In this document: positions 25,973-32,587 of the stretch, in pieces | Layout: every line of letters begins with the position of its first letter | Position numbering within the stretch: the stretch's first letter is position 1 | Assembly (NCBI GenBank): GCA_028284905.1 | Contig: JANQQU010000064.1 | Location: 62,001 to 126,000 of the forward strand | Length of the DNA: 64,000 bases | From: Calditrichia bacterium | GTDB taxonomy: Bacteria; Calditrichota; Calditrichia; RBG-13-44-9; J075 | Direction of reading: 5' to 3' | Made by a program: the position numbers and the translations under genes | The notes under the pieces: model-generated | Told to the model about the DNA's origin: nothing | What the model saw: the letters and a program-made list of their open reading frames with translations, nothing else | Databases searched by the model: none

Positions 25973-26277
25973 ATGATCTCCTCTTCAATAATTATGTGAA
26001 TGACCGGGTTAAAACGATGCTTCGCCGCAATTAAATTCCGGAATCGAACGTTGGCAATACCCCATTATGCGTAAAAATAACCGGGAATGCTCAGCGGAAG
26101 TTGCCAATAACAATATTTTTCCGTCAATTGCAAAGGTGACCCAAATTTTAGCGTTTTTGTAAGATCATTATGTTTTGATTATATTCGCGATATTCAGGAA
26201 GCTGTATCAAAGTAAAATAAGCCTAATGAACAACCCCAAAAGGGCAAGCGAACAAGAATAACGAAAAGGAGAGACAG
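25973..26277. other. Divergent intergenic region: VCBS protein / selenoprotein promoters
   Basis: No gene is seen in 305 bases. The right end holds a likely promoter for the ArsC-family gene (26157-26185) and its ribosome site AAAGGAG (26265-26271). Confidence 0.6.
26157..26185 (+). promoter_or_regulatory. Probable promoter of the selenoprotein gene
   Basis: TTGTAA (26157-26162), a 17-base spacer, and TATATT (26180-26185). This would give a leader of about 85 bases ending in the strong ribosome site before the ATG at 26278. Confidence 0.5.
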
Positions 26278-26622
26278 ATGGCGAAATTGGATTGGTATTA
26301 TCATCGTTCCGGCTGAAACACTTGTAAAAAATCGCAGGAGTTTCTTGCGCAGAACAATATTGAACCGGAAGAGCAGCAAAGTGCCAGTAAAAAATTGAAC
26401 GCAGATGACGTTACTGCCATACTTACAGACGTGGATGAAATATATTCCATGAAGGGACGGAAAGTACATCATCTCAACTTGAAAACCGAGAGTCCTTCTC
26501 AGGAAGAAGTGCTGAGTTTATTGTTAGGACCCACCGGAAACCTTCGTGCCCCGGCACTACGAAAAGGGCGGACATTGATTGTGGGATTTAATGCAGACAC
26601 TTATGCTTCGGTATTTCGCTAA
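26278..26622 (+). CDS. ArsC/Spx-family selenoprotein with in-frame UGA (Sec13)
   Basis: Read through UGA at 26314-26316, this is a complete 114-residue thioredoxin-fold protein of the ArsC/Spx/YffB family. It opens LDWYYHRSG-U-NTCKKSQEFL, so Sec13 takes the place of the first Cys of a CxxC-type motif and Cys16 is kept. Downstream blocks (KKLNADDVTAIL, PSQEEVLSLLLGPTGNLRAP, then RKGRTLIVGFN) are family-typical, including the Arg and cis-Pro of RAP. The ATG at 26278 has AAAGGAG 6 bases upstream and the frame is open on both sides of the UGA. A hairpin that fits a bacterial SECIS follows (26333-26349). Likely a redox enzyme (reductase or peroxidase-like); arsenate as substrate is not shown. A gene starting after the UGA would lack the active-site helix. 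Confidence 0.88.
26333..26349 (+). promoter_or_regulatory. Bacterial SECIS-like hairpin
   Basis: CGCAGGA (26333-26339) pairs with TCTTGCG (26343-26349), seven pairs including one G-U, around the triloop GTT. The loop begins 23 bases after the UGA and has G as its first base, in line with the known bacterial SECIS pattern (short apical stem, small loop with an early G, about 16-37 bases after UGA). Confidence 0.7.
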
Positions 26623-26939
26623 ACGCATTTTAGTATCGTCGATGGTTATTGCCAGTTAGCATAACCATCGGCATCTTTATCAGTCAATTCAAGAGGATGA
26701 GACGAAAAAAGTTAATCATTCCCCACGCTATTCTTATCTCCTTAAAGTCATTTTCAATTTTTTCTCTTCACAACTCACCGAGAATCGTCACTTACACTAC
26801 ATTATTTCATAGCTAAATTGATATCAAACTGACAACAAAGTGTAATTTTGCGATTCGCCAGCATAGTGGCCACAATTGAAATAAGTTTGATTCATACCGA
26901 TTCTGCAAGGAAGCGGATTAATGAAGCAGGGATGATATT
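26623..26939. other. Intergenic region with hairpin after the selenoprotein gene
   Basis: No gene in 317 bases. A perfect 10-bp stem CGATGGTTAT (26640-26649) with ATAACCATCG (26661-26670) follows the stop by 18 bases and is followed by GCATCTTTATC. It is a plausible but weak terminator. The rest should hold the promoter of the lipoprotein gene at 26940. Confidence 0.55.
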
Positions 26940-28782: not shown

Positions 28783-30645
28783 TTACTTCATTAAAATCAT
28801 TTTTTTCACCTGACGGAAATCGGCGGTTTGAATGCGGTAGAAATAAATACCGCTGGTCACCGTCTTTCCAAAATCATCGGTTGCGTCCCAGCTAACGGTA
28901 TAATTTCCAGCCTCGCGGCTTTCGCTTACCAATGTCTTCACCAGGCGCCCGGCAATATCATATACCTTTAACTCAACAAATCCAACATCCGAAGTTGTAA
29001 ATCCGATCGTGGTTGTGGGATTGAACGGATTGGGATAGTTCTGCGCCAGTTCATACTGCTGCGGCAGCTGTGCGGCATTCTCTTCATCGCGGTCGACAAC
29101 CTGTTTGGGTGGACTCTGGGAACTGTGATGGAGAATGGTGCCGCCAGTGCTGAAGGAGATGTCTTCCGCGCAGATCGCTCCGCGGAAGTGTACATAACTT
29201 TCCGCGCGCACTTTCGCATCCGGGGCGACGATGGTGCCAAGTACCGTCGATTCCCGGCGCAGTTCCAGGTTGCTGCTTTGCAGGCTGTTGAAGAAAACTT
29301 TCCCGCTACCGCCTTCTCCTTCGGAAGTGCTCACAACCGAGCGGTCCCCAAAGCGCAGCTTGTTGACCACGTTGATAAAGACTGGCCCGCCGCTAAGGTC
29401 GATATTGAGTTGCGTATCGGTATTAAGGATTAACTCTTCCAGGAAGTATTCTCCGGCGCTCAAATTAAGGATGCCGTCCCGTTCAACCTCCACATCGCCA
29501 TAGCTGCCCGGGGGCAGGTCGAGGGTTTCCTCATCTTCCACGGTGATGTCTTCCGTGCCGGCGGCAAAGGGGGCCAGCGGGGGAATATCCACCGGGGAAA
29601 CGGCGCCTTCTTCTGTCACCGTGCCGTCAACTGTGCCGTCGTTGTCAACGTCGTCACCAGCGGTGATGTCACCGGTAATGGTGTTGTCGCTGGAGATGTC
29701 AATATCGTCGCCAGCGGTAAGGCTGCCGGTATGGACAGTCGGCGCGCCACGGTTAAGGTCGATATCGTCATTAGCGTGCATGTCGCCCTCGGTGGCGGTT
29801 GCCGCGGAAATCTCGATATCAACCGTTGCCAGCAGCAGGTAATCGTGTGGCAGGGAAGGGCCGTCTTCCAGCTTGATCATTTTCGAATTGTCGATCGCCA
29901 GAATACCGAATTCATTGTTCGCAAACCAGCCGTAGCGGTTGGCCGCTACTTCAATATTAATCAAATCCGTCGCATCGCTCAGCGTCCAGGTGTGCAGAAC
30001 GCTGCCGGAGGGGTCAAGAATGCTGAGATCGCAAGCCAGCACTCCGCTGCCGTTATCATAAAAAGTATGCTGAAAAGTGTGCCAGCCGCTCGCGCTGATC
30101 ACGAAAGGATCCCGGCCGGGATTTTTCGGATAGGAATTGCCGCGTCCGGTATTATTACTGGCGCTGACCACGAAACGGGGGCCGCTGCCCGGCGGTGTGG
30201 TGTCGAAGTAAAAACCGGCATTAAAGGCAAAATCCCGGCGGTGAGAGCCTTCCGGGCGGCTAACTGCAGAGGTAAAATCGAAGCGGGTATCATTGGGCAA
30301 TTCCATCGTTAAATCCAGATAAACATCCACCGAAGTTTGCCAGCCGTTAGCGGGAAAAACCGCGCCGGCAGCACAACCGGTATTGTCGCAGCCGGGAACA
30401 CAGTTATACCCTCCCCAGTTGGTAGCTGCGGGGCCCGCTTCCGCGTGGTAACTACCAGTGCGGGAGGTGATGCCATTGGTGCCGGATGGAACCCGGATAG
30501 CGTGGAGGCCGCTACTGAAGACATCCCAGCCGCTGTTATCAGTTTCGAATCCCTGGTCAAAGAAAACGCCTTGCCCGTTTGATGTCATGGGAAATAATCC
30601 CAGTAAGAGTAGTGTCAGGAAGATCTGAATTCGTTTCATTCTCAT
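28783..30645 (-). CDS. Secreted modular protein with T9SS-type sorting domain (tandem paralogue 1)
   Basis: A 620-residue protein with signal peptide IFLTLLLLGLFPMTSNGQ. Residues about 26-265 are a lectin/galactose-binding-like beta region (FFDQGFETDNSGWDVFSSG, WHTFQHTFYDNGSG) with a small Cys cluster (NCVPGCDNTGC). Residues about 266-530 form a repetitive beta-helix-like domain of GDM/GDI/GDV units ([28 protein letters not shown]) that recalls polymer-forming bactofilin-like folds. The sorting domain is about 530-620 ([17 protein letters not shown], ending KKMILMK). From about 266 it is nearly identical to the neighbour at 30740-32587; the N-terminal module differs. Function unknown, predicted surface-exposed. 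Confidence 0.85.
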   Translation of the reverse strand: MRMKRIQIFLTLLLLGLFPMTSNGQGVFFDQGFETDNSGWDVFSSGLHAIRVPSGTNGITSRTGSYHAEAGPAATNWGGYNCVPGCDNTGCAAGAVFPANGWQTSVDVYLDLTMELPNDTRFDFTSAVSRPEGSHRRDFAFNAGFYFDTTPPGSGPRFVVSASNNTGRGNSYPKNPGRDPFVISASGWHTFQHTFYDNGSGVLACDLSILDPSGSVLHTWTLSDATDLINIEVAANRYGWFANNEFGILAIDNSKMIKLEDGPSLPHDYLLLATVDIEISAATATEGDMHANDDIDLNRGAPTVHTGSLTAGDDIDISSDNTITGDITAGDDVDNDGTVDGTVTEEGAVSPVDIPPLAPFAAGTEDITVEDEETLDLPPGSYGDVEVERDGILNLSAGEYFLEELILNTDTQLNIDLSGGPVFINVVNKLRFGDRSVVSTSEGEGGSGKVFFNSLQSSNLELRRESTVLGTIVAPDAKVRAESYVHFRGAICAEDISFSTGGTILHHSSQSPPKQVVDRDEENAAQLPQQYELAQNYPNPFNPTTTIGFTTSDVGFVELKVYDIAGRLVKTLVSESREAGNYTVSWDATDDFGKTVTSGIYFYRIQTADFRQVKKMILMK

Positions 30646-30739: not shown

Positions 30740-32587
30740 CTACTTCATCAAAATCATCTTTTTCATCTGGCGGAAATCCGCGGTCTGAATGCGATAGAAA
30801 TAGATACCGCTGCTCACCGTTTCCCCAAGATTATTGGTGGCATCCCAACTAACGGTATAATTTCCGGCATTGCGATTTTCACTGACCAACGTTTTTACCA
30901 GGCGGCCAGAAATATCATAGATGGCTAACTCGACAAATCCGCCATCCGCCATCCGAAATGCGATATTCGTGGTTGGGTTAAACGGATTGGGATAATTCTG
31001 TGCCAGTTCATACTGTTGCGGCAGATGAGCGGCATTCTCTGCATCGCGATCGGCAACCTGCTTGAGCGGGGTCTGGGAATCGTGATGGAGAATGGTGCCG
31101 CCGGTGCTGAAGGCGATATCTTCCGCACAGATCGCTCCACGGAAGTTGACGTAGCTTTCCGCGCGCACTTTCGCATCCGGGGCGATGATGGTGCCCAGCA
31201 CCGTCGACTCCCGGCGCAGTTCCAGGTTACTGCTTTGCAAACTGTTGAAAGTGACCTTCACACTGCCACCATCTCCTTCGGAGGTGTTTACTACCGAACG
31301 GTCTCCAAAGCGCAGTTTGTTGACCACGTTGATAACGATTGCTCCAGCACTGAGGTCGATGTTCAATTCAGTGTCAGTGCCGAGGATCAGTTCTGCCAGG
31401 AAGTATTCCCCGGCACTCAAATTGAGAATACCGTCCCGCTCCACTTCTACATCGCCGTAGCTGCCCGGGGGCAGGTCGAGGGTCTCGTCCTCCTCGACGG
31501 TGATATCTTCCGTGCCGGCGGAGAAGGGCGCCAGCGGGGGAATATCGACCAGAGAAACCGCGTCGTCTTCAGTGACTGTTCCGTTGACGGTGCCGTCGTT
31601 ATCGACATCGCCACCGGCGGTGACGTCGCCGCTAATGGTGTTCTTGCTGGAGATGTCGATATCATCGCCGGCGGTGAGGCTGCCGGTGTGGACGGTCGGC
31701 GCGCCGCGGTTGAGCTCGATATCATCATTGGCATGCATGTCGCCTTCAGTGGCAGTGGCAGCGGAAATTTCTATATCAACTGTCGCCAGCAGAACGTAAG
31801 GATGGGGTGCCGCCGGGGCGTCGATTTCGAAGTTCGCAGAAACTTCATCGCTGCCATTAAATTCACAAATGATGTTATCTACAAAACCGAGAAAAGTATT
31901 CCCCCAACCAGAACCGACGCCGGTATTAATCCCAACGACCAGCGTGCTGGCGTCAATGGCTACCGGGGTGGGGTCACCGGTTTGCCCACTGGGAGAGGTA
32001 TTGATCCAGTCCGCGAGGGTAACTCCGAAATTTTGTACGACGCCGGAAGGAATCCCTTGTCCGGATGGCACGAACATCCAGAATTTCTGACTAAGAATAT
32101 CGCGGGACATCCAGGTATCTTCCGTAACAACATTCCCATTGTAGATATTTTCCCATATCAACAAGGCGATATGTCCTGTGGAAGGATTAACAACATACAA
32201 GCGGAACACCGGCAGAAAATGGCCAGCATTGGTACTACTGCTGCTACGGTAAATCTCAAATTGCAGTTTACTCAGGGCGGCCAGGGTCCGGGTCGGGTGA
32301 TCGATCGGTATTGTTGTAATATCTTCCCAATAGATCTCGAAGTCTGCCTTATCCTGTCCGGAAGTAACGGTGTTGGTCGCAAATTCCAGGGAGCCGCTGC
32401 CGCTGCGGGGTTGGGTGCCGGTAATGCCAACAGTGGCATCCGCCCGTACATTGGCTTCTCCCCAGACAAGCGGATTGACCGTCGTGGGGGCGGTATCCGC
32501 TGGTTTGATAATGGTTTGTGAAAATATTGGATGCGATAACATACCCAATATCAATGCTAAAGTAAGATAGCGGTACATATTCCTCAT
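30740..32587 (-). CDS. Secreted modular protein with T9SS-type sorting domain (tandem paralogue 2)
   Basis: A 615-residue protein with signal peptide [18 protein letters not shown]. Residues about 24-262 are a different N-terminal module ([55 protein letters not shown]), beta-rich and without the Cys cluster of paralogue 1. The remainder repeats paralogue 1 closely: [51 protein letters not shown], and the sorting domain ending KKMILMK. The pair arose by duplication with N-terminal exchange. A 501-residue open frame on the opposite strand (31016-32521) is a by-product of codon use. Confidence 0.85.

Follow-up and report, generated by a model that had tools for sequence, protein, structure and literature searches.

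A predicted selenoprotein of the NF041106 family in a Calditrichota genome, with a candidate SECIS hairpin that disappears where selenocysteine is replaced by cysteine

The frame at 26278–26622 of the window (the whole 64,000-nucleotide stretch of DNA analysed) is very probably a genuine bacterial selenoprotein gene of the family NF041106, and, judged by sequence criteria, recoding of its internal UGA as selenocysteine (Sec) is close to certain. The frame opens with an ATG at 26278–26280, is preceded shortly 5′ by a Shine–Dalgarno-like AAGGAGA within AAGGAGAG, and contains a single in-frame stop before its TAA, a UGA that falls exactly at the first position of the redox motif YHRSG-U-NT-C (Table 1). 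The original prediction, which described a frame clean on either side of one UGA behind a ribosome-binding site, was exact in both its coordinates and its description. With the TGA counted as one residue, the readthrough product begins MAKLDWYYHRSG-U-NTCKKSQEF... and runs to 114 residues. An inverted repeat with 10-bp arms and an 11-nt loop lies just 3′ of the gene.

Table 1. Positions of the gene, its signals and related features (window coordinates unless a locus is named)
Feature	Position	Strand	Basis or comment
Predicted ArsC-like selenoprotein CDS	26278–26622	+	114 aa; Sec13 (UGA), resolving Cys16; TAA 26620–26622
Shine–Dalgarno-like ribosome-binding site AAGGAGAG	26264–26272	+	Read directly; shortly 5′ of the ATG
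UGA, putative selenocysteine (U13) in YHRSG-U-NT-C	26314–26316	+	Aligned codon is TGA in 76/83 homologue rows and Cys in seven
Candidate bacterial-type SECIS hairpin CGCAGGA-GUU-UCUUGCG	26333–26349	+	Covariation, invariant GUU, loss in Cys genes, codon constraint
Predicted beta-hairpin, codons 54–67, with K59-G60, replacing ArsC/Spx helices	26437–26478	+	AlphaFold2 model against a control model
Motif GPTGNLRAP, codons 84–92	26527–26553	+	Invariant at all nine positions across 81 homologues
Perfect 10-bp inverted repeat lacking a T run; may mark the end of transcription	26640–26670	+	Shortly 3′ of the stop codon
In-frame UGA of selD	L019 about 2392–2394 (G000:C21)	-	Motif CAG-U-ASK

The frame is real and far exceeds what chance would give. 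Of the UGA-readthrough frames in the window, eleven extend for 90 codons or more past the UGA and have an ATG 10 or more codons before it; under a looser limit of 60 codons, the 26278 frame alone was seen, on inspection, to encode a recognisable protein family both before and after the UGA, and none of the remaining readthrough frames of the window resembled a protein family. The readthrough protein matches NCBIfam NF041106 (ArsC_rel_Se_1, ‘ArsC family (seleno)protein’) over residues 4–109 with 130.6 bits (E = 3e-38; cut-off 85 bits), in keeping with the family blocks that the original prediction noted past the UGA up to the full length; in a search of the genome the same gene scored 122.9 bits, again above cut-off. 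It carries the U/C-x-x-C motif of the family, in which the first place is taken by Sec or Cys. The claim that a standard gene finder would miss the gene holds for naive ORF callers, but has lost ground now that this curated model exists.

A scan of a collection of species genomes gave at least 475 confirmed relatives, of which the best 80 were retained and, together with a search of the phylum, yielded an alignment of 83 rows. After removal of two duplicates (L023, which is the window itself, and one of L024 and L044, which give the same match on contigs of equal length and were counted as a single locus), 81 homologues including the window gene remained, 74 with Sec and 7 with Cys, a ratio that applies to the closest 80 relatives and not to the whole family. 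The codon aligned with the UGA is TGA in 76 of the 83 rows, TGC in five and TGT in two; neither TAA, TAG, a decayed codon nor any other codon occurs there in these rows. It had been proposed that Sec or Cys at position 13 of homologues would support recoding, and that decay or other stop codons would argue against it; the alignment contains only the former. Within the closest 80 relatives, Sec and Cys forms are spread over Planctomycetota, Acidobacteriota, Methylomirabilota, Rokuibacteriota, Melainabacteria, Nitrospinota, Calditrichota and others.

Bacterial SECIS elements are defined as stem-loops just 3′ of the UGA with a small apical loop and a conserved G (PMC1088965), and the hairpin listed in Table 1 has this form: its stem begins 16 nt 3′ of the UGA and comprises seven pairs around the loop GUU, with the loop G at 26340 (-7.1 kcal/mol). 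The 74 Sec genes align without gaps downstream of the UGA. In this alignment, 90.4% of the cells of the helix are paired (83.8 in shuffles, 0/500), 28 cells are changed on both sides (5.5 in shuffles, 0/500) and the covariation score is 0.278 (0.156 in shuffles, at most 0.203 for versions slid along the alignment), although related rows can exceed shuffles. The column pair 21–35 shows all six standard pair types, and unguided RNAalifold recovers five of the pairs. The loop GUU is present in 74/74 UGA genes and in 0/7 Cys genes, where the stem is broken too. Codon choice at two positions is strongly constrained beyond the needs of the protein: Glu21 is encoded by GAG in 62/62 cases, compared with 232/479 for the rest of these genes (p = 2e-18), and Leu23 by CTT in 62/74 (p = 5e-41), although CTT is one of the minor codons for Leu there. 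An Rfam search of the window gave no matches, and the minimum-energy fold of the window sequence alone, with the UGA included, favours a competing pairing of a UGA-proximal GAAAC with GUUUC (z -0.68), so that the case for the SECIS rests on family comparison.

In the tree, the Cys forms arise about three times, with at least two of the places forced by well-supported branches; the loop and the UGA have therefore probably been lost jointly more than once. Taken together, the covariation, the linkage between GUU and UGA, the codon constraint and this repeated joint loss make Sec insertion close to certain by sequence criteria. The Cyanobacteria-related Cys forms (L069, L080, L093 and L108) cluster together with good support and would lend themselves to the study of how Cys replaces Sec. 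The possibility that a Cys codon, TGC or TGT, was misread or mutated to TGA, a single base away, so that the gene is a pseudogene or a sequencing error, is negligible: the same TGA occurs in 73 other non-duplicate loci from many phyla, the linked hairpin is lost where the codon is Cys, and both the frame and the conserved residues of the window gene are otherwise intact. A genuine stop is ruled out by the same homologues and hairpin.

The genome holding the window (G000; 8.55 Mb, estimated 100% complete) encodes the full set of Sec genes. It has a tRNA-Sec (selC; 73 bits) with anticodon TCA (UCA), a selB (349.5 bits) adjoining selA, a selA (531.6 bits) in two pieces (L017 and L018; G000:C46:4356-5474 and G000:C28:25337-25666) and a selD (388.6 bits). 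Because the two selA pieces sit at the ends of contigs C46 and C28 and overlap by about 33 residues, they are taken as one gene split by assembly. The selD gene has an in-frame UGA of its own, in THLVTCAG-U-ASKIGPGDL, and, from this motif, is likely to encode a selenoprotein as well. The original prediction named these four genes as the ones to look for and the absence of all of them as evidence against recoding; it is thus well supported, by the complete set as by the UGA and Cys homologues and by the SECIS lost in the latter. Across the phylum, 28 of 40 genomes have a selA above cut-off, and two of them, G033 and G037, each hold two full-length copies, all above the family cut-off, which may be paralogues or reflect mixed bins. 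NF041106 itself is rare there, exceeding its cut-off in 2/40 genomes. In the tree, the window protein and sequences from Nitrospinota and Calditrichia form one group (support 99/92), consistent with a patchily distributed gene that has perhaps moved horizontally.

Residues that are invariant or nearly so among the 81 homologues include W6, Y8, H9, R10, G12, U/C13, C16, F22, L23 and A36, followed by K59 (94%)-G60, the motif GPTGNLRAP, G97, G103 and F104. An AlphaFold2 model built with 53 homologues (pLDDT 93.5, pTM 0.85) has a thioredoxin-like core and a beta-hairpin at residues 54–67. In this fold, Arg90 and Pro92 (the latter probably a cis-Pro) should point towards the redox motif; the cis-Pro and anion-binding roles are suggested by analogy with ArsC and Spx. 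The best matches of the model in the PDB are Spx and ArsC-related proteins, at a TM score of about 0.55 and an r.m.s.d. of about 7; no solved structure fits the hairpin-bearing model (26278–26619) well. As a control, an ordinary Cys-containing ArsC-related protein from the same phylum (L028; 97 bits to TIGR01617) was modelled in the same way; its model has the usual helices and reaches TM scores mostly of 0.75 to 0.89 to YffB, ArsC and Spx. Since the control matches these structures well, the low TM score would, as far as the predicted model holds, be a property of the NF041106 family.

The protein had been assigned to the ArsC/Spx family, an assignment that stands at superfamily level, whereas the defining residues and the helical part of arsenate reductases and Spx are not kept; both an arsenate reductase and an Spx-like regulator are possible but disfavoured. 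A glutaredoxin- or thioredoxin-linked arsenate reductase with Sec as its nucleophile would agree with the Pfam ArsC match (33.6 bits, cut-off 24), with the invariance of R90, the equivalent of ArsC R94, and with the name arsenate reductase-like used in the literature. However, of the arginine triad R60, R94 and R107 of ArsC (PMC3169414), only R94 is clearly kept in an alignment made via Spx and not directly to E. coli ArsC: the R60 equivalent is K59, a Lys in 76/81 homologues, and there is no invariant Arg at or near the place of R107. The UxxC motif implies an internal resolving Cys, unlike E. coli-type ArsC; the predicted structure departs from ArsC in that the helical middle subdomain is not found (TM about 0.55, against up to 0.89 for the control); and no gene recurs widely beside family members, whose neighbours were clustered and annotated in part. 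We consider this reading improbable, and arsenate unlikely as the main substrate.

Less probable still is a regulator of the Spx kind. Spx proteins are the nearest solved sequences (profile E = 7e-10), the UxxC aligns with the CxxC switch of Spx, and R90 and K59 align with Spx R92 and R60, respectively. Spx G52, however, is needed for binding to the alpha-CTD of RNA polymerase and for activation (PMC2801614), and four residues around it are deleted in the alignment, which places the variable column 51 there. The region of Spx helix 4 is a beta-hairpin in the predicted model, again with a TM score to Spx of about 0.55, and the score against TIGR01617 is 47.5 bits, below the cut-off of 75.05; matches to the Spx/MgsR and Spx models fall below their cut-offs. 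On balance, we lean towards NF041106 being a separate family of thioredoxin-fold selenoproteins, neither arsenate reductases nor Spx, in which the helical ArsC subdomain would have been rebuilt as a beta-hairpin around GPTGNLRAP and which would act on a distinct redox substrate, in Planctomycetota, Acidobacteriota, Calditrichota and others.

The UxxC motif, the thioredoxin fold and the anion-friendly residues nearby make it probable, on sequence and model, that the protein acts as a free-standing selenol/thiol–disulfide oxidoreductase with internal resolution by C16. In the mechanism that we propose, SelB carrying Sec-tRNA(UCA) would bind the SECIS and Sec would be inserted at residue 13, giving a small protein of thioredoxin fold; its selenolate, U13, would attack a substrate that is a disulfide, peroxide-derived or an oxyanion. 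U13 and C16 would then be joined in a selenenylsulfide, the pair being recycled by a donor of the thioredoxin or glutaredoxin type. The conserved H9 and R10 ahead of U13, together with R90 of GPTGNLRAP, probably serve to tune the selenol and to hold an anionic group. Clustering of 555 neighbouring ORFs from the 81 loci found no nearby gene shared by more than a few loci, and the window gene is flanked by an FG-GAP/Por-secretion protein and an SdiA-regulated/phytase-like lipoprotein with no evident link to it; a single-gene housekeeping or stress redoxin is therefore expected. Elsewhere in the window, two similar adjoining secreted proteins on the minus strand (28783–30645 and 30740–32587), each with a sorting-tail-like C-terminus, resemble a tandem duplication.

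The use of Sec in the ArsC family had been put forward as having precedent. This kind of selenoprotein is indeed already known: NCBIfam devotes a model to the family, and reviews include it in their tables. A search for papers on ‘ArsC family’ selenoproteins or on Calditrichota selenocysteine gave none in the library searched. Selenoproteome surveys, a 2026 review among them, had already listed the family, and recent reviews (PMC13188914, PMC9312934) give ‘Arsenate reductase-like protein’, NF041106, with UxxC; the window protein shares the whole-length match, the motif and the place of Sec with it, and differs only in its Calditrichota host. The ‘Arsenate reductase 2’ (cd03032, UxxC) of the 2008 Global Ocean Sampling survey (PMC2398784) is likewise an ArsC/Spx-like protein that contains Sec in a UxxC motif and has Cys homologues, but comes from marine metagenome reads, and its motif and domain suggest that it is the same as NF041106. 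The ‘Arsenate reductase 1’ selenoproteins of the Sargasso Sea (PMC1088965; TIGR00014 in PMC13188914) also have Sec in place of the ArsC nucleophile, but in a UxxS motif without a resolving Cys, and are filed under the true ArsC model. Bacillus Spx (PDB 1z3e, 3gfk and 7f75) shares the CxxC/UxxC motif, R92/R90 and the thioredoxin-like core with the window protein, which has the G52 alpha-CTD site deleted, lacks a matching helix 4 and is shorter at its C-terminus. YffB (PDB 1rw1 and 2kok), which binds glutathione (PMC3169414), is another small redoxin related to ArsC in which one Arg of the triad is conserved, but has one Cys only and retains the helical middle part.

The gene adds a well-supported Calditrichota member to a catalogued selenoprotein family. 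The comparison also yields a clean model of the SECIS in this family, with a GUU loop that is gone exactly where Sec has given way to Cys. The part likeliest to interest a specialist is the structural one, which raises the possibility that ‘arsenate reductase-like’ is a misleading label for those who seek the function of these proteins.
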